From Leucobacter exalbidus (GTDB lineage: Bacteria; Actinomycetota; Actinomycetes; Actinomycetales; Microbacteriaceae): DNA of 64,000 nt. Both the position numbers and the translations under genes were made by a program. The DNA lies in the NCBI RefSeq assembly GCF_017834145.1, contig NZ_JAFIDA010000001.1, positions 1 to 64,000 on the forward strand, in the 5' to 3' direction. This document shows positions 19,087-25,442 of this stretch, piece after piece. Numbering within the stretch: the first letter of the stretch is position 1; each line of letters begins with the position of its first letter. The notes below the pieces were generated by a model. The model was not told the origin of the DNA and did no database searches. It saw only the letters and a list, made by a program, of their open reading frames with translations.

Positions 19087-19108
19087 CGCGGGTGGCGTCG
19101 GCCCCGGC

Positions 19109-19114
19109 TATCCT
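19109..19114 (+). promoter_or_regulatory. -10 box of the lipoprotein/SAHH-like operon
   Basis: TATCCT, 7 nt before a GTG at 19122. Confidence 0.5.
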
Positions 19115-19121
19115 AAAAGGT

Positions 19122-19820
19122 GTGCAAATGAAGTTACGTGCTCGAGCCGCTGCGCTCGCGATCGCGGCCACCGGGCTGCTCTTGGCCGGCTGCAGTGCCG
19201 GCGCAGGCTCCGCTGAACCCAAGCCCAAACCCGAGGTGCTCTCTGCGAGCGAAGCCGGGGGAATCTATCTTGATGCGGTGTGCCCGGTGAACCAGGCCTG
19301 GGATGCCGCCGATGTGGAGCTTGACCGGTTACGCCTCACGATCTCGCGGGGCGAGCCCGATACGCGCAGGTTCGCCTCGGCCATGAACAAGGTCGCCGCC
19401 GCGAGCAAAACCGCCGCGAATGATCTTGACCCGAAGACCCTCGATACCGACGGGCACGTGTGGCCCAAGGACGCACTCACCGAGGTTGCTGCGGTGCAGC
19501 GCACGCTCACGAGCGACCAGGCGCAGGCGACCAAGGTCGCAAAGTTTGGAGTCAACCAGGTGCTGGGTTACGAGTGGGACGGGGCCGAAGATCTGGGCGC
19601 GGCAGCAAGCGCCGCTCGTGCCGCGCTCGGTCTGCCCGCCGACGGCGAAAATGCCTGCCAGCAGTGGCACGACCAGGTAGCCGCCGACGAAGCAGCCGCA
19701 AAAAAGGCCGCTGCTGACTCCGGATCAACGGGCAAGGACTCAGCTGAGAAGTCGCCCGCCGAGAAGCCGGCATCCAAGCCAGCACAGAAATCTTCTTCCG
19801 ATTCGAGTAGCACCTCATGA
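19122..19820 (+). CDS. Secreted lipoprotein, unknown function
   Basis: Exported lipoprotein with a basic N-terminus, hydrophobic core and lipobox LLAGC ahead of a helical domain. The C-terminal 45 residues are a low-complexity Ala/Lys/Ser tail (KSPAEKPASKPAQKSS). Two cysteines (in DAVCPVN and ENACQQW) may form a disulphide. The start is either GTG 19122 (7 nt after TATCCT) or ATG 19128. It overlaps the SAHH-like gene by ATGA, a surprising coupling of an envelope lipoprotein to a cytoplasmic enzyme-fold protein. Confidence 0.82.
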   Translation: MQMKLRARAAALAIAATGLLLAGCSAGAGSAEPKPKPEVLSASEAGGIYLDAVCPVNQAWDAADVELDRLRLTISRGEPDTRRFASAMNKVAAASKTAANDLDPKTLDTDGHVWPKDALTEVAAVQRTLTSDQAQATKVAKFGVNQVLGYEWDGAEDLGAAASAARAALGLPADGENACQQWHDQVAADEAAAKKAAADSGSTGKDSAEKSPAEKPASKPAQKSSSDSSSTS

Positions 19821-21454
19821 CGCTCGCGGGGGATTCGGCCGCGCTCGCGATCGAGCGTGCGGTGCGCGCCGCGGCGCGATCGGGCAACCGGCTGCTCTCG
19901 GGCAGCACCGCGCTCGTCTCGGTGACCGATGACCTCGCGCGCACCACCCTGCAGCATGCGCTCGCACGCATGGGCGTGCGGGCAGCATTACCGGGCCACC
20001 CAGCAGACTTCGTGTTTGTTGACACCAGCGATGCAGCAGAGTTTGCTGCGTCTGACGCTGCGGCCGACTCAAGCCTCCCCGCCGTGGTCGTGGCCCTCGA
20101 CGGCGGCATCGTGTCACCGCGTGGAACCGACCCGGCTGCGCGCATCGCATGGGCCGAGCGCGGCATGCCCGCCACCGCCGCCCTCGCCCGCGAACTTGCG
20201 CAGGGCATGGTGGGCGGCGCCGCGCCGCGCGTGGCCGTGAGCCTAGTGCTCGAGCCCAAGACCGCGGCGTTTACGCTGACGCTCGCGGCAGCGAGGTGTG
20301 ACGTCGCGGTGTTCAGTGCGGTGTCAGAGACCGATCCCGAGATCGCACGCGAGCTTGCCAAAGACGGCAGGGTCGCCGTGTTCGCCCCCACCGATGAGAC
20401 CTCAAGCTCGCGCATCAAGAGTGTTGATGCGGCGCACGCCGCCGCCATCTTGGAGTGGGCCCCCGACTACCTCATTGACGACGGTTCACACCTGATCAGG
20501 CTTGCACACACTGAGCGCCCTGACGCCCTAGACTGGCTGGTCGGTGCGGCTGAAGAAACCACGAGTGGGGTGCGGCCGCTGCTCGAAATGGTGCAGCAGG
20601 GTGATCTGCGCATTCCCGTGATCGCGGTCAATGATGCGCGCACCAAAACCGGGTTTGACAACCTCATTGGCACGGGGCAATCGTGCGTGTTCGCGATCGC
20701 CGATGTGCTCGACGCCGCTGGCTGGCACGCGCCCGCACAGCAGCACCGTGACGACGGCGCCACTTACGCAGGGCTCCACGGCACACGGTGGACCGTGATC
20801 GGGTACGGCCCCGTGGGCGTGGGCACCGCGCGGTTTGCCGCGGCGCTGGGCGCGACGGTCACCGTGGTTGAACGCGATCCGGTGCGCGCCCTCGACGCCC
20901 TGCACGACGGATTCGAAGCGCGCAGCATGGCTGACGCGCTCGCTACTGCAGACGTGGTGGTGAGCGCGACCGGTGTGTGGCACACGCTCGGGCGCACGCA
21001 CTTCGCCGCGATGCGCCCGGGCACCGCGGTCGCGGTCGCCGGCGGCATCGACGACGAACTCGCGCTCGACGAACTGCGCGCCGCGGGCTGGACGATGGCA
21101 CCTATCGGATCGCCCGCATCCGCGCTCGAAGAGTGGCGCGCACCCGATGCGACCGCCGGCCCCTATGTGGTCGCGGGCGGCGGTGGCGTGAACTATACCG
21201 CGGGGGAGGGCAACCCCATCGAAGTGATGGATCTGTCGTTTGCCACGCAGCTCGCAGCACTCGCGAGGCTGATGCGCGAGCGCCCGGCGCCCGGCGTGCA
21301 CGCGCTTTCTGCGGCTGAGGAGCGGCTCGTGGCTCGGGCGGCGCTCGCAGCGCGCGGCGGCAGCGCCGACGCAGATCCGGAATCTACGCGTGCCGGAGGC
21401 GCCGCGCAGCCGTGGCCCATCCACCGCTACCGCACGCACAACATCGAGCAATAA
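19817..21454 (+). CDS. S-adenosylhomocysteine hydrolase-like protein, active-site histidines lost
   Basis: The SAHH fold is recognisable from about residue 105: RIAWAERGMP, then SLVLEPKTA (archaeal-type LHLExKTA), DDG (221-223), AEETTSG (245-251), NDARTKTGFDN (272-282), the NAD loop GYGPVGVG (329-336) and EGNPIEVMDLSF (464-475). Human His55, His301 and His353 align with Val144, Gly410 and Asn466, and Cys195 with Thr286; Asp131, Glu156, Lys186, Asp190 and Asn191 equivalents remain. A 100-residue N-terminal extension is unusual. It probably binds NAD but is unlikely to be an ordinary SAH hydrolase. It is the second gene of an operon and sits 18 nt before a deaminase-like gene. Confidence 0.8.
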   Translation: MTLAGDSAALAIERAVRAAARSGNRLLSGSTALVSVTDDLARTTLQHALARMGVRAALPGHPADFVFVDTSDAAEFAASDAAADSSLPAVVVALDGGIVSPRGTDPAARIAWAERGMPATAALARELAQGMVGGAAPRVAVSLVLEPKTAAFTLTLAAARCDVAVFSAVSETDPEIARELAKDGRVAVFAPTDETSSSRIKSVDAAHAAAILEWAPDYLIDDGSHLIRLAHTERPDALDWLVGAAEETTSGVRPLLEMVQQGDLRIPVIAVNDARTKTGFDNLIGTGQSCVFAIADVLDAAGWHAPAQQHRDDGATYAGLHGTRWTVIGYGPVGVGTARFAAALGATVTVVERDPVRALDALHDGFEARSMADALATADVVVSATGVWHTLGRTHFAAMRPGTAVAVAGGIDDELALDELRAAGWTMAPIGSPASALEEWRAPDATAGPYVVAGGGGVNYTAGEGNPIEVMDLSFATQLAALARLMRERPAPGVHALSAAEERLVARAALAARGGSADADPESTRAGGAAQPWPIHRYRTHNIEQ

Positions 21455-21472: not shown

Positions 21473-22786
21473 GTGAGCTCCCAGCAAGAAATCGTCGTGT
21501 ACAGCGCGGCCCTCGTATTTCCCGTGACCAGCCCCCGCATCGCCGATGGGGCGGTCGCGGTGCTGGGTAAGCGCATTTTGCACGTCGGCGACCGCCGCTG
21601 GGTGCTCGAAGCGCTTGAAGAGCGCGGCGCGCAGTACCGCGAAGAGCACTGGGACGGCGTGCTCGCCCCCGGGCTCGTCAACGGGCACACCCACCTGCAG
21701 TACACCCACATGGCCGAGGTTGCCAACCGCAACTACCGCGGGTTTGACGACTGGGGCGACGCGTTCGACGCCGTGTACGAACGCGTCGGGCACGACTGGG
21801 CTGCTGCGGCCGCTGACGGGGCGGCCCTGAGCCTGGCCGCAGGCGTCACCGCCGCGGCCGACGTTGTAACCGACCGCGAAGCCCTCTCAGCCCTGCACAC
21901 CGCGGGAATGCACGGCATCGCCTACTGGGAGGTGTACGGCGCCGATAACGCGGGCTGGACGAACGAAGCCAAAGACGCGGTGCGCGAGCAGATTCGCTCG
22001 ATTCCCTCGCCCCCCGGCGCCGGAGTTTCGCCGCACGCCCCATACTCGCTTGACGTGCAGCCGCTGCTCGAGCTGCCCGACATCGTGCGCGAGGAAGGCC
22101 TGCGCCTGCACATTCACCTCGCCGAGGCGCACATGGAGCGTGAGTTCGACGGCATCGACGGGTACGCCGGCCCCGGCGGGCACGGCTCGTGGCCGTCGCT
22201 CGGCGCCGACAGCTTTCGGGCGCTGCGCTCGCACGGCATCGGCGTCTCATCGACCCAGTTCGTCGACCACCTGGGCGTGCTCGGCCCCGACTGCCACATC
22301 GCCCACGGCGTGTACGTCAGCGCTGAAGACCGCGCCCTGCTGCGCGCCCGCGGCACGAGCGTCGCCCTGTGCCCCCGCTCCAACGAGGTCATCGGGCTCG
22401 ATATGCCCCCGGTGGCGGCCTACCTGCGCGAGGGCAACCAGATCGCGGTGGGCACCGACTCGCTCTCGTCGTCACCCTCGCTCGACCTGCTCGCCGACGT
22501 CGGCAAGCTATACCGGGTCGCCCGCGACCAGGGATACCGCGGCGACGACCTGCACCAGCGCCTGTTTGGTGCGGCGACGCTCGGCGGCGCCGCGGCACTC
22601 GGTCTGCACGTGGGCAAGAACCGGATCGGGCAGCTTGGCGTCGGCGCCATGGCTGACCTCGCGTTCTTCGACGTGCCCACCCACAACCCCGATGTCGCCC
22701 TCGCCGAGCTCGTGGAGGCCGGCGCGGGTCGCGCCCGGCGCACCATCGTGGCCGGTGTTGAAAAATACAACGTCACCTCGGGCTAA
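21473..22786 (+). CDS. Amidohydrolase, SAH/MTA deaminase-like
   Basis: Metal-dependent hydrolase of the cytosine-deaminase/TrzN group. Ligands visible: His72 and His74 (GHTHL), His215 (HIHLAE, with Glu218), His278 (HIAHG) and Asp329 (GTDS). The SPHAPYS segment (186-192) is typical of 5'-methylthioadenosine/SAH deaminases and aminofutalosine deaminases. At 437 residues it has the family length. The substrate is not decided by sequence. The SAHH-like neighbour makes an adenosyl thioether or a related nucleoside a reasonable guess. Confidence 0.85.
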   Translation: MSSQQEIVVYSAALVFPVTSPRIADGAVAVLGKRILHVGDRRWVLEALEERGAQYREEHWDGVLAPGLVNGHTHLQYTHMAEVANRNYRGFDDWGDAFDAVYERVGHDWAAAAADGAALSLAAGVTAAADVVTDREALSALHTAGMHGIAYWEVYGADNAGWTNEAKDAVREQIRSIPSPPGAGVSPHAPYSLDVQPLLELPDIVREEGLRLHIHLAEAHMEREFDGIDGYAGPGGHGSWPSLGADSFRALRSHGIGVSSTQFVDHLGVLGPDCHIAHGVYVSAEDRALLRARGTSVALCPRSNEVIGLDMPPVAAYLREGNQIAVGTDSLSSSPSLDLLADVGKLYRVARDQGYRGDDLHQRLFGAATLGGAAALGLHVGKNRIGQLGVGAMADLAFFDVPTHNPDVALAELVEAGAGRARRTIVAGVEKYNVTSG

Positions 22787-22815
22787 CCGATTCTGGGACT
22801 GTTGCTCACGTCTCG

Positions 22816-22821
22816 TAGAAT
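22816..22821 (+). promoter_or_regulatory. -10 box of the ABC importer operon
   Basis: TAGAAT about 58 nt before the ATG at 22880. Unlike most promoters here, it produces a leadered mRNA with an AGGAG site (22868-22872). Confidence 0.5.
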
Positions 22822-22879
22822 GAGGAGCAGCCTGAAGCTCGCACCTTCTTTCGATTCACTTTTACATAGGAGTACTCGC

Positions 22880-23704
22880 ATGTCTCGTACGTCTCGCGTT
22901 GTTGCCGCGGTCGCCGCTGGCGCTGCCGCCCTGCTTGTCCTTTCCGCCTGCACCAGCGGTGCCGCAGACTCTGCCGAGATTGGTTCGGTTACCGAGGGCA
23001 AACTCACTATCGCGACGGGCGAACCCGCGTACGCGCCGTGGATGATCGATAACACCCCCGAAAATGGCGAGGGCTTCGAATCGGCCGTGGCCTACGCCGT
23101 GGCAGAGGAGATGGGCTATACCGCCGAGGACGTCGTGTGGATTCGTACCCCGTTCGAGTCGGCCATCGCGCCCGGCCCGAAGGAGTTCGACCTGAACATG
23201 CAGCAGTTCTCGGCGACGCCCGAGCGCGAGAACGCGGTTGATTTCTCCTCGCCGTACTATGTCACCACCCAGGCCATCGTCGCGAATGCGGGCAGCGAAG
23301 CCGCGAACGCAAAGTCGATCAAGGATCTTGACGGCACCGTCTTCGGTGTCGCTTCGGGCACCACGTCATTCACGGCCGCCGAGAAGGTCTTCGGCGACAC
23401 CGCCAAAGTGCAGGTGTTCAACAACCTCGATGACGTGGTCGCTGCGCTGCAGAACGGCAACATCGACGCGCTCGTGACCGACCTGCCCGGTGCGTTCTAC
23501 GTACGTGATGCGCAGCTCGATGACGGTGTCATCGTGGGCCAGCTCGCCGATGAGGCGGGCGACGAATTCGCCTTCCTACTGCCGAAGGGCTCGAACCTCA
23601 CCAAGCCCGTCTCTGACGCGGTCGATACGCTGCGCGAAGACGGCACCCTCGACGAGCTCGCCGCAGAGTGGATTGCTGACCAGGGTGCACCCGTGCTGAA
23701 GTAA
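22880..23704 (+). CDS. ABC importer substrate-binding lipoprotein, amino-acid type
   Basis: Extracellular family-3 solute-binding protein. Signal peptide with lipobox VLSAC, then KLTIATGEPAYAPW, the usual opening lobe strand, and FDLNMQQFSATPERENAVDFSSPYY, the amino-acid-binding signature. The start at 22880 is set by the AGGAG site; the longer frame has no signal logic. It is followed by a strong intergenic stem-loop, then permease and ATPase. Substrate is probably a polar amino acid or derivative. Confidence 0.92.
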   Translation: MSRTSRVVAAVAAGAAALLVLSACTSGAADSAEIGSVTEGKLTIATGEPAYAPWMIDNTPENGEGFESAVAYAVAEEMGYTAEDVVWIRTPFESAIAPGPKEFDLNMQQFSATPERENAVDFSSPYYVTTQAIVANAGSEAANAKSIKDLDGTVFGVASGTTSFTAAEKVFGDTAKVQVFNNLDDVVAALQNGNIDALVTDLPGAFYVRDAQLDDGVIVGQLADEAGDEFAFLLPKGSNLTKPVSDAVDTLREDGTLDELAAEWIADQGAPVLK

Positions 23705-23814: not shown

Positions 23815-24660
23815 TTGACCCACACTGTCAGCGCCATTGAACTGGACCGCCGCGCGTATCGCCGTGCGCGCGGGCGACGCTCGGTGCTTGTGAGCTTGCT
23901 CAGCACGCTCGTCTTCGCCGCGGTGCTCGTGCTCGTGCTCGTATCGAGCCCCGGTTGGGAGAGCGTGCGGCACAGCTTCTTTGATTTCAACGTCGCGGTG
24001 CAGGCCTTCCCGCGCGTAATCGAGGGCCTGTGGCTCAACGTGCAGGTGCTGTTTATCGCAGGCATCGGTGTGGCGATATTGGGCACCCTGCTCGCGGTGG
24101 CCCGCACCCTCAAGGGGGCCGTGTTCACGCCCATTCGGCTCTTGGCGGCCGGCTACACCGACCTGTTTCGCGGTATTCCGGTGCTGCTCGTGCTGTACCT
24201 CGTCGGCTTCGGCATCCCCGGCCTCGAGCTCACCAACTGGATGCCCCCGCAGTTCTGGGGCACCATCGCCCTGATCCTGTGCTATTCGGCCTACATCGCC
24301 GAGGTGCTGCGCGCGGGCATCGACGCCGTGCACCCCTCGCAGCGGCTCGCCGCTCGTTCGCTCGGCCTGAGCCACGGCAAGACGCTGCGCCTCGTGGTGC
24401 TGCCGCAGGCGGTGCGCAAGGTCACCCCCGCGCTGATGAACGACTTTGTATCGTTGCAGAAGGACGTGGGGTTGATCTCGGTGTTGGGCGCGGTGGACGC
24501 TGTGCGTGCCGCCCAGATCGAGGTGGCAACGGCCTACAACTTCACGCCGTACGTGCTCGCGGGGCTGCTGTTCGTATTGATGTCGCTGCCGTTCATTCGG
24601 CTCACCGACTGGTTGACGGCCCGCGCGCAGAAGCGTGAGCAGATTGGGGGCGTCGTATGA
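23815..24660 (+). CDS. ABC importer permease, amino-acid type
   Basis: Inner-membrane component with five to six helices in 281 residues. The EAA loop that docks the ATPase reads AARSLGLSHGKTLRLVVLPQAVRKVTPAL, and YTDLFRGIPVLLVLYL is typical of HisM/GlnP permeases. I accept the TTG start at 23815 because CAGGA (23803-23807) lies 7 nt before it. It overlaps the ATPase gene by ATGA. A single permease gene implies a homodimeric channel. Confidence 0.92.
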   Translation: MTHTVSAIELDRRAYRRARGRRSVLVSLLSTLVFAAVLVLVLVSSPGWESVRHSFFDFNVAVQAFPRVIEGLWLNVQVLFIAGIGVAILGTLLAVARTLKGAVFTPIRLLAAGYTDLFRGIPVLLVLYLVGFGIPGLELTNWMPPQFWGTIALILCYSAYIAEVLRAGIDAVHPSQRLAARSLGLSHGKTLRLVVLPQAVRKVTPALMNDFVSLQKDVGLISVLGAVDAVRAAQIEVATAYNFTPYVLAGLLFVLMSLPFIRLTDWLTARAQKREQIGGVV

Positions 24661-25442
24661 CCGGCGAACAGACCACTTCAGCGGCAAATCCCCGCACTTC
24701 ACCCGTGCTCGACGTGCGCGGGGTCGTAAAAACGTTTGGCGACCAACCGGTGCTGCGTGGCATCGACCTCACCGTCGACAAGCACGAGGTCGTCGTGCTC
24801 ATCGGGGCTTCGGGCTCGGGCAAGTCGACGCTGCTGAAAACGATCAACCTGCTCGAGCAAGTTGATGACGGCCAGATCATGCTCGGCGACACCGATATCA
24901 CTGACCCGAGCGCTAACACCGACAAAGTGCGTGCGCGCATCGGCGTGGTATTTCAGCACTACAACCTGTTTCCCCACATGAACGTGCTCGACAACGTCAC
25001 CCTCGCGGCCCGCAAGGTGTTTGGCACCCCGCGCGCACAGGCCGAGGCCCGCGGCCTCGAGCTGCTCGCCCGCATCGGCCTGGGCGACAAAGCCAAAGAG
25101 TTTCCCGATCGACTCTCGGGCGGCCAGCAGCAGCGCGTGGCGATCGCGCGCGCGATCGCCACTGATCCGGAGCTGTTATTGCTCGATGAGATCACGAGCG
25201 CCCTCGATCCGCAGCTCGTGGGCGAGGTGCTTGACATGGTGGGGGAGCTGAAGCGCGCCGGATCAACGATCGTGATGGCGACCCATGAGATGTCGTTTGC
25301 GCGTCGAGTGGCTGACCGGGTGGTGTATTTGAAGGACGGGGTGATCATCGAGTCGGGCACCCCCGAGGAGATCTTCGAGCGCCCCCAGCGCGCAGAAACA
25401 CGCGAGTTTTTGGCGCGGCTGCGCGACCCGTTCGCGCCGTAA
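24657..25442 (+). CDS. ABC importer ATPase, amino-acid type
   Basis: Powers the preceding importer. Walker A GASGSGKST, Q-loop VFQHYNLFPHM, signature LSGGQQQR, Walker B LLLLDEITSALD and the switch His in ATHEMSFARRVAD are all present in 261 residues. It matches the GlnQ/HisP class. Last gene of the three-gene operon. Confidence 0.95.
   Translation: MTGEQTTSAANPRTSPVLDVRGVVKTFGDQPVLRGIDLTVDKHEVVVLIGASGSGKSTLLKTINLLEQVDDGQIMLGDTDITDPSANTDKVRARIGVVFQHYNLFPHMNVLDNVTLAARKVFGTPRAQAEARGLELLARIGLGDKAKEFPDRLSGGQQQRVAIARAIATDPELLLLDEITSALDPQLVGEVLDMVGELKRAGSTIVMATHEMSFARRVADRVVYLKDGVIIESGTPEEIFERPQRAETREFLARLRDPFAP

Follow-up and report, generated by a model that had tools for sequence, protein, structure and literature searches.

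An SAHH-like gene with replaced 5′-side residues

The window (the whole stretch analyzed here, 64,000 nucleotides of contig NZ_JAFIDA010000001.1 of Leucobacter exalbidus) contains an intact open reading frame (ORF) encoding a 545-amino-acid (aa) relative of S-adenosylhomocysteine hydrolase (SAHH), which is followed by genes for an amidohydrolase and an ATP-binding cassette (ABC) importer (Table 1). The protein scores above the Pfam gathering thresholds for both SAHH domains (AdoHcyase, 67.3 versus 25 bits; AdoHcyase_NAD, 69.2 versus 27 bits), placing it in the SAHH superfamily, and below the curated cut-offs of all five matching adenosylhomocysteinase models in NCBIfam (281.4 of 485 bits; 265.7 of 275, the nearest to passing; 230.2 of 497.6; 147.7 of 512; and 52.4 of 440), placing it outside the SAHH/AhcY equivalogs. 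Its nearest solved relatives are S-inosylhomocysteine (SIH)-type enzymes; 3gvp and 3mtg, also found in the search of solved structures, are presumably of AHCYL1/AHCYL2 type. The predicted structure has a mean predicted local distance difference test (pLDDT) score of 94.

Table 1. Features of the operon and of related loci (prefixes: L, locus; G, genome; C, contig)
Feature	Position	Strand	Basis
VGN-clade SAHH-like protein, 545 aa	19817..21454	+	intact ORF, family matches, alignment, tree, predicted model
N-terminal extension, residues 1-105; likely remnant of the partner NAD domain	19817..20131	+	weak for the window, clear in intermediates of other lineages; predicted alpha/beta fold
V144-L145-E146-P147-K148; Val in place of the catalytic His, with the E and K that read hypoxanthine retained	20246..20260	+	alignment
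D222, equivalent of human D131 (C4′ proton), kept	20480..20482	+	alignment
K277 to N282; 3′-oxidation residues K277, D281, and N282 kept	20645..20662	+	alignment
G410-I411, replacing the gate His-Phe	21044..21049	+	alignment
N466, replacing His353	21212..21214	+	alignment
Amidohydrolase (PF01979), deaminase superfamily, near-constant neighbor	21473..22786	+	family matches, locus survey
Family-3 (amino-acid type) substrate-binding protein	22802..23704	+	family matches, alignment
ABC permease, polar amino acid type	23815..24660	+	family matches
ABC ATPase, polar amino acid type	24657..25442	+	family matches
SAHH-amidohydrolase fusions	L050:8472-11561, L051:7518-10799, L052:7209-10574, L139:3670-6630 (986 aa)		single ORFs
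Cupin_5 gene, examples	L041:11543-12025, L054:12242-12766, L043:7469-7948		

Residues were placed by a HMMER alignment to the Pyrococcus SAHH 7r37 and by a per-position table from an alignment of 107 rows, comprising 51 sequences of the clade that we term VGN (after its V144/G410/N466-type replacements), 6 histidine-bearing partners, 49 canonical (archaeal-type) SAHHs, and 1 Pyrococcus sequence. In both alignments, human H55, H301 (Pfu H298), and H353 (Pfu H350) correspond to V144, G410, and N466, the three positions at which the first-pass annotation, aligning by eye, had reported histidines to be missing. The replacements extend to the whole clade: the histidine of H55, both gate residues (G410-I411 in the window protein), and H353 are replaced in all 51 VGN rows, none of which has the catalytic histidine of the HxExK motif. 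What surrounds these positions is retained. The pair of that motif that reads hypoxanthine (E146/K148) is E and K in 51/51, and the same holds for K277, D281, and N282, which serve 3′-oxidation and had been matched from the start, for the C4′ aspartate D222, and for the residues contacting the 2′-OH and 3′-OH; the acid that binds the NAD ribose (E352 position) is E in 47 rows and D in 4. The equivalent of Cys195 is indeed T286, as first noted, but this is uninformative, given that all 49 canonical archaeal-type rows also have threonine there.

In the active-site description of mouse SAHH (PMC4647836), the 5′-OH is surrounded by H55, D131, and H301, with H55 acting as the water-activating base, while the 3′-OH is held by T157/K186, the 2′-OH by E156/D190, and H353 touches the base through its main chain. 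Another study (PMC10978960) gives HxExK as the signature of enzymes favoring S-inosylhomocysteine over S-adenosylhomocysteine (SAH) and a His-Phe pair as the molecular gate. Since the E/K pair and ribose residues are kept and the 5′-side residues are replaced, recognition of the base and ribose would be preserved and the 5′ side rebuilt. Judged by these residues, VGN proteins have lost water activation, 5′-OH binding, and the gate and have kept NAD binding, 3′-oxidation, C4′ deprotonation, and hypoxanthine reading. The first-pass annotation had therefore located the change on the wrong side of the substrate when it spoke of altered base and ribose contacts; its broader proposals, that NAD-binding and oxidation residues persist and that the substrate is different, stand, the latter as likely.

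The loss of three histidines, along with rapid evolution of the N-terminal part (ratio of nonsynonymous to synonymous substitution rates [dN/dS], 0.31 to 0.56, higher than in the rest of the protein), might suggest a decaying SAHH gene. We regard this as very improbable, in keeping with the original view that simple decay is not at work: similar replacements recur in 51 sequences of one clade, the operon is conserved, and the SAHH domain is under purifying selection (dN/dS of approximately 0.15, 0.23, and 0.28 against three relatives from the genus), such that the residue changes are not chance drift.

Distribution of the VGN clade and its histidine-bearing sister

The altered SAHH is a conserved clade across Actinomycetota and not a single mutant gene. 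VGN sequences occur in Streptosporangiaceae, Nocardia, Mycobacteriaceae, Microbacteriaceae, Actinomycetaceae, and Acidimicrobiia, as well as in metagenome-assembled genomes labelled Spirochaetales and Pseudomonadales. Within the window's own family, 60 of 398 genomes have a match at E <1e-58 (counted by hand, with motifs checked in the fetched loci only); 53 of these lie outside the genus, and 42 of the 53 show more than one match, although such matches are perhaps not all separate genes. The 51 VGN loci (the window, 20 from the 60 family matches, and 30 from the best 80 loci) were chosen and are not a random sample, and two of them (L045 and L091) are the same contig.

In a tree of 82 rows (50 VGN, 6 partners, 25 of the 49 canonical sequences, and Pyrococcus), built by a quick method whose only support values are from the Shimodaira–Hasegawa-like approximate likelihood ratio test (SH-aLRT), all VGN rows group together (SH-aLRT 100), as do the histidine-bearing partners (100); these two clades are each other's sisters (98), and the canonical sequences fall outside them. 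Two groupings, L058 with L059 and L053 with L055 and L056, appear in both the VGN and the partner half. By this tree, VGN and its sister arose from one duplication. In some lineages the two remain fused or adjacent: among the 120 matches listed, 15 of the 15 proteins of at least 797 aa are double proteins. In every one, the equivalents of H301 and H353 are present in the first half (which at H55 carries His in 11 and Gln in 4), and the second half has V, G, and N. Partner and VGN are adjacent genes in L053 and in G400 (L138) and, by position and score, also in G399, G419, and G436. The predicted structure of one double protein (P0092) has a predicted template modeling score of 0.45, too low to place its halves against each other.

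In other lineages the sister has eroded. A model built from the six partners was run against the stretch upstream of VGN, for which 40 rows, the window's own stretch not among them, are listed. Five full pairs match at 4e-229 or better, these being the model's own sequences; the stretch in Rhizohabitans matches at 1.4e-66 over 368 aa, with catalytic motifs gone by eye; two Streptosporangium loci, NEAU-GS5, and five Rathayibacter loci match at about 2e-13 to 4e-7 in the region of the NAD domain; and the remaining rows range from 7e-6 to above 1. Most of these weak matches begin at model positions 187 to 202, the start of the NAD domain.

The N-terminal extension reported in the first-pass annotation as about 100 residues is real, amounts to about 105 residues, and is modeled with confidence (pLDDT above 90 in 7 of the ten 10-residue blocks of residues 1 to 100, with a lowest block of 77). 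Its predicted fold (helix 2-22, strand 31-35, helix 39-51, strand 65-68, helix 71-80, strand 90-93) follows the same succession of elements as the beginning of the protein's own NAD domain. In hhalign, a profile made from 96 extensions aligned with the NAD-domain start of canonical and partner SAHHs (E 0.001 and 0.002; probabilities 21% and 13%), compared with 0.14 to 0.98 for reversed and column-shuffled control profiles; a match of E 0.0044 to an unrelated position in the VGN profile puts these values close to noise. Owing to the eroded intermediates elsewhere and the predicted element order, the extension is likely what is left of the NAD domain after loss of a histidine-bearing partner.

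Operon and genomic context

The amidohydrolase gene begins 18 bases after the SAHH-like ORF and is followed by those for the substrate-binding protein, permease, and ATPase. It is near VGN in 50 of the 51 loci, the exception (L064) being a contig that ends some 950 bases past VGN, and in none of 50 other loci (the 49 canonical loci, which are mostly archaeal and thus not a lineage-matched control, and L055). Of 54 genomes of the genus, which are related and not independent, the same 35 have both the amidohydrolase (E at most 1e-60) and VGN, and joint presence or absence holds in 54/54; a 36th SAHH match, in G432 (E 1.8e-25, 32% identity), appears canonical by score and lacks the amidohydrolase. 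At least four genomes encode the two as single fused ORFs of 986 to 1,121 aa, and a further fusion, in G428, is indicated by equal open-frame length. In G419 (C16; L136) and G436 (C179; L137), the amidohydrolase-importer operon has no VGN in place, the partner-VGN pair lies elsewhere in the genome, and a second amidohydrolase is found on the same contig as the pair (G419) or on another small contig (G436). In G400, genes for a sugar-type importer and an amidohydrolase come after the partner-VGN pair.

These fusions, the three lost histidines, and the ancestral pairing with a histidine-bearing sister would also fit a protein that is no longer an enzyme, but an NAD-binding subunit or regulator that binds an inosyl nucleoside and NAD and scaffolds or controls the amidohydrolase. 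Animal AHCYL1 and AHCYL2 (IRBIT), which are SAHH relatives too, extended at the N terminus and changed in function, offer a model, in that AHCYL1 acts on targets of its own; the likeness is by description, and AHCYL lacks an operon. We consider this explanation unlikely, as a scaffold would not need the oxidation-site K, D, D, N, E, and T that are kept in 51/51, and as it is the putative catalytic sister that erodes while VGN persists.

The amidohydrolase itself is, from its scores, only a distant relative of known nucleoside deaminases. Its best NCBIfam match, to 8-oxoguanine deaminase, reaches 113 of 532 bits, all models being far below cut-off, and it falls outside the methylthioadenosine/SAH and 5′-deoxyadenosine deaminase equivalogs (PRK15493, 48.6 of 779 bits; PRK07228, 88 of 522 bits). 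The accompanying importers differ among the 51 loci: 29 have amino-acid ABC importers, 18 have energy-coupling factor (ECF) S and T components, L053 and L056 have sugar-type importers, L064 has an ECF ATPase alone, and L078 has none of the types sought; amino-acid ABC and ECF importers never share a locus. The window's substrate-binding protein aligns with amino-acid binders, including two shared motifs that we take to be the amino-acid clamp, a resemblance suggesting an amino-acid-like part in the predicted substrate. Among ECF S components, that of L057 scores 209.5 against a cut-off of 99 in a model whose name refers to riboflavin transport, those of L065 to L067 are under the riboflavin-type equivalog cut-off (PF07155 being named for riboflavin), and no solved relative was found for that of L066.

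The three importer types, one of them sugar-type and one passing a riboflavin-transporter model, and the remoteness of the amidohydrolase from nucleoside deaminases raise a further alternative, in which the amidohydrolase has a different ring as its target and another sugar or heterocycle is handled by a reused SAHH fold. Such a non-purine substrate seems to us quite unlikely in view of the invariance of the hypoxanthine-reading E/K and both ribose-hydroxyl clamps.

Several other genes lie near VGN. In the window, a 242-aa ORF (19092-19820), lipoprotein-like by eye and without a family match in Pfam or NCBIfam scans, overlaps the SAHH-like start by 4 bases, and in L035, L036, and L039 a relative likewise lies ahead of the SAHH-like gene. 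A Cupin_5 (DUF985) gene is near 27 of the 51 VGN loci and was not found by tblastn in the window's operon; the structure entry for a relative solved with guanosine diphosphate (3LZZ; PMC11594714) offers a lead only. Genes for a BPD_transp_2-type permease and a class I aldolase-like protein lie upstream of the double-SAHH operon of L058 (4316-7281) and may hint at what becomes of the sugar.

A predicted route for imported nucleosides

Our preferred interpretation, held tentatively and at somewhat less than an even chance, is that VGN is an SIH hydrolase (SIHH)-type variant of SAHH that removes the 5′ side chain of an imported and, by prediction, deaminated nucleoside by NAD chemistry. The operon's ABC importer (elsewhere an ECF or sugar-type importer) would take up an adenosyl compound whose 5′ group resembles an amino acid, as in compounds of the SAH or S-adenosylmethionine type; the amidohydrolase would turn its adenine into hypoxanthine; and VGN would oxidize the 3′-OH (K277/D281, NAD), with D222 taking the C4′ proton and the 5′ group leaving by beta-elimination. 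With the water-activating and protonating residues missing, either a good leaving group or a hydration half-reaction unlike that of SAHH would be expected. The amidohydrolase shares its superfamily with the deaminase of the known adenosyl-to-inosyl route. Import, deamination, and NAD-assisted loss of the 5′ group are the simplest reading.

That route, comprising SIHH (EC 3.13.1.9; Methanocaldococcus, Pyrococcus, and Thermotoga type) and the deaminase DadD, resembles the present system in fold, NAD site, ExK motif, 2′/3′ ribose contacts, and a pathway partner from the amidohydrolase superfamily. Unlike SIHH, the window protein lacks the catalytic histidine, the gate His-Phe, and His353, is linked to an importer, is N-terminally extended, and scores below the NCBIfam equivalog cut-offs. 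Classical SAHH (AhcY, HxTxE/Q type) shares the fold and the NAD and 3′-oxidation residues and differs in base motif, catalytic histidine, and gate. Another actinobacterial SAHH relative that does not act on SAH is AgmF, the NAD-dependent dehydratase of angustmycin A biosynthesis, whose dehydration is a new reaction taken on by an SAHH relative (PMC8599513). Compared by that description, AgmF keeps and needs H56 and H299, where the window protein has V144 and G410, which points to a leaving group needing no acid or to a reaction that stops earlier.

VGN might instead be, in effect, an SIHH in which other residues activate water, giving a scavenging version of the Methanocaldococcus/Thermotoga deaminase-SIHH route. 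The retained ExK motif, the deaminase-superfamily partner, the SIH-type enzymes as closest solved relatives, and the fusion in some lineages to a histidine-bearing sister all speak for it, yet we judge it improbable: none of the 51 VGN rows retains H55, H301, or the gate Phe, the mutant data on AgmF in PMC8599513 show activity abolished by replacing either histidine alone, and the sister that has the histidines is lost or eroded in many lineages that keep VGN.

Several observations weigh against the route of import, deamination, and 5′-group removal. AgmF is an SAHH relative with proven different chemistry, and its inactivation by H56A or H299A (PMC8599513, same data) means that losing both histidines may leave VGN with no 5′ chemistry at all. 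Deamination of adenine by the operon's amidohydrolase is a guess, made from its family and the E/K pair; the protein lies far under all model cut-offs, another gene of the same genome is much closer to nucleoside-deaminase models, and the retention of E and K could reflect ancestry. A partner-VGN pair outside the 51 loci (L055) has no amidohydrolase in the 10 kb downstream, with 555 bases seen upstream. The riboflavin-type S component of L057 does not suggest an adenosyl amino acid, and the predicted model of the window protein contains no ligand. That S component and the closer deaminase relative make this route slightly less probable and a non-purine substrate slightly more so.

A more doubtful variant still has VGN as an NAD-dependent lyase for sulfonium nucleosides, with a neutral thioether as the leaving group; S-inosylmethionine, made by deaminating imported S-adenosylmethionine, would for example yield methionine. 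The histidines would be gone because a thiolate or hydroxyl leaving group needs them, whereas a sulfonium would repel them. VGN, deaminase, and importer would then constitute an uptake-and-breakdown pathway for adenosyl-sulfonium compounds, with the histidine-bearing sister of the double proteins handling the thioether (S-inosylhomocysteine) branch.

An unlikely house-keeping role, and significance

No second PF05221 gene was found in the 3.18-Mb, one-contig genome. The first-pass annotation had named, as a case against its reading, a sole SAHH gene with normal SAH hydrolysis; the first half of this case agrees with the genome search. House-keeping recycling of SAH by VGN was considered and is unlikely, as 19 of the 54 genus genomes lack VGN and the own genome has other salvage genes. 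A second salvage cluster (C1:1,430,814-1,439,962; L033, L034, and L135) contains LuxS, a TRZ/ATZ-type nucleoside-deaminase relative with a best score of 329 of 540 bits, an ORF of nucleoside-phosphorylase type, an ORF that looks HAD-like by eye, and a nucleosidase-like ORF just short of its model's cut-off (116.6 of 129). The deaminase relative, the phosphorylase-type ORF, and the nucleosidase-like ORF are all below cut-off, and LuxS is not. By these scores it is a LuxS genome without a clear Pfs, and only 1 of the 54 genus genomes passes the nucleosidase cut-off of TIGR01704. Because the genome has LuxS, the nucleosidase-like ORF, and a closer SAH-deaminase relative elsewhere, the gene in the window need not be the house-keeping SAH hydrolase.

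A link to a riboswitch was likewise dropped: at gathering thresholds, a tRNA was the sole Rfam match in the window, and seven VGN loci had no match. Searches of an open-access library for a VGN-amidohydrolase-importer module gave no paper on it, the one item listed being a Lactiplantibacillus genome paper, and a term search of the text of a 2026 SAHH review (PMC13406329) had no hit for SAHH-like, paralog, or Actinobacteria.

Databases name members of this clade "adenosylhomocysteinase" although they lack residues of that enzyme, making the annotation unsafe for calling methyl-cycle capacity. If the interpretation is true, VGN would belong to an unrecognized actinobacterial route for using external adenosyl or inosyl compounds; it would provide a natural experiment that separates the SAHH residues needed for oxidation from those needed for the 5′ group, and the survival of an altered duplicate, with the standard copy worn down to a Rossmann stub, would be unusual. 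The operons of G419 and G436, without VGN and with the pair elsewhere in the genome, amount to a natural swap.
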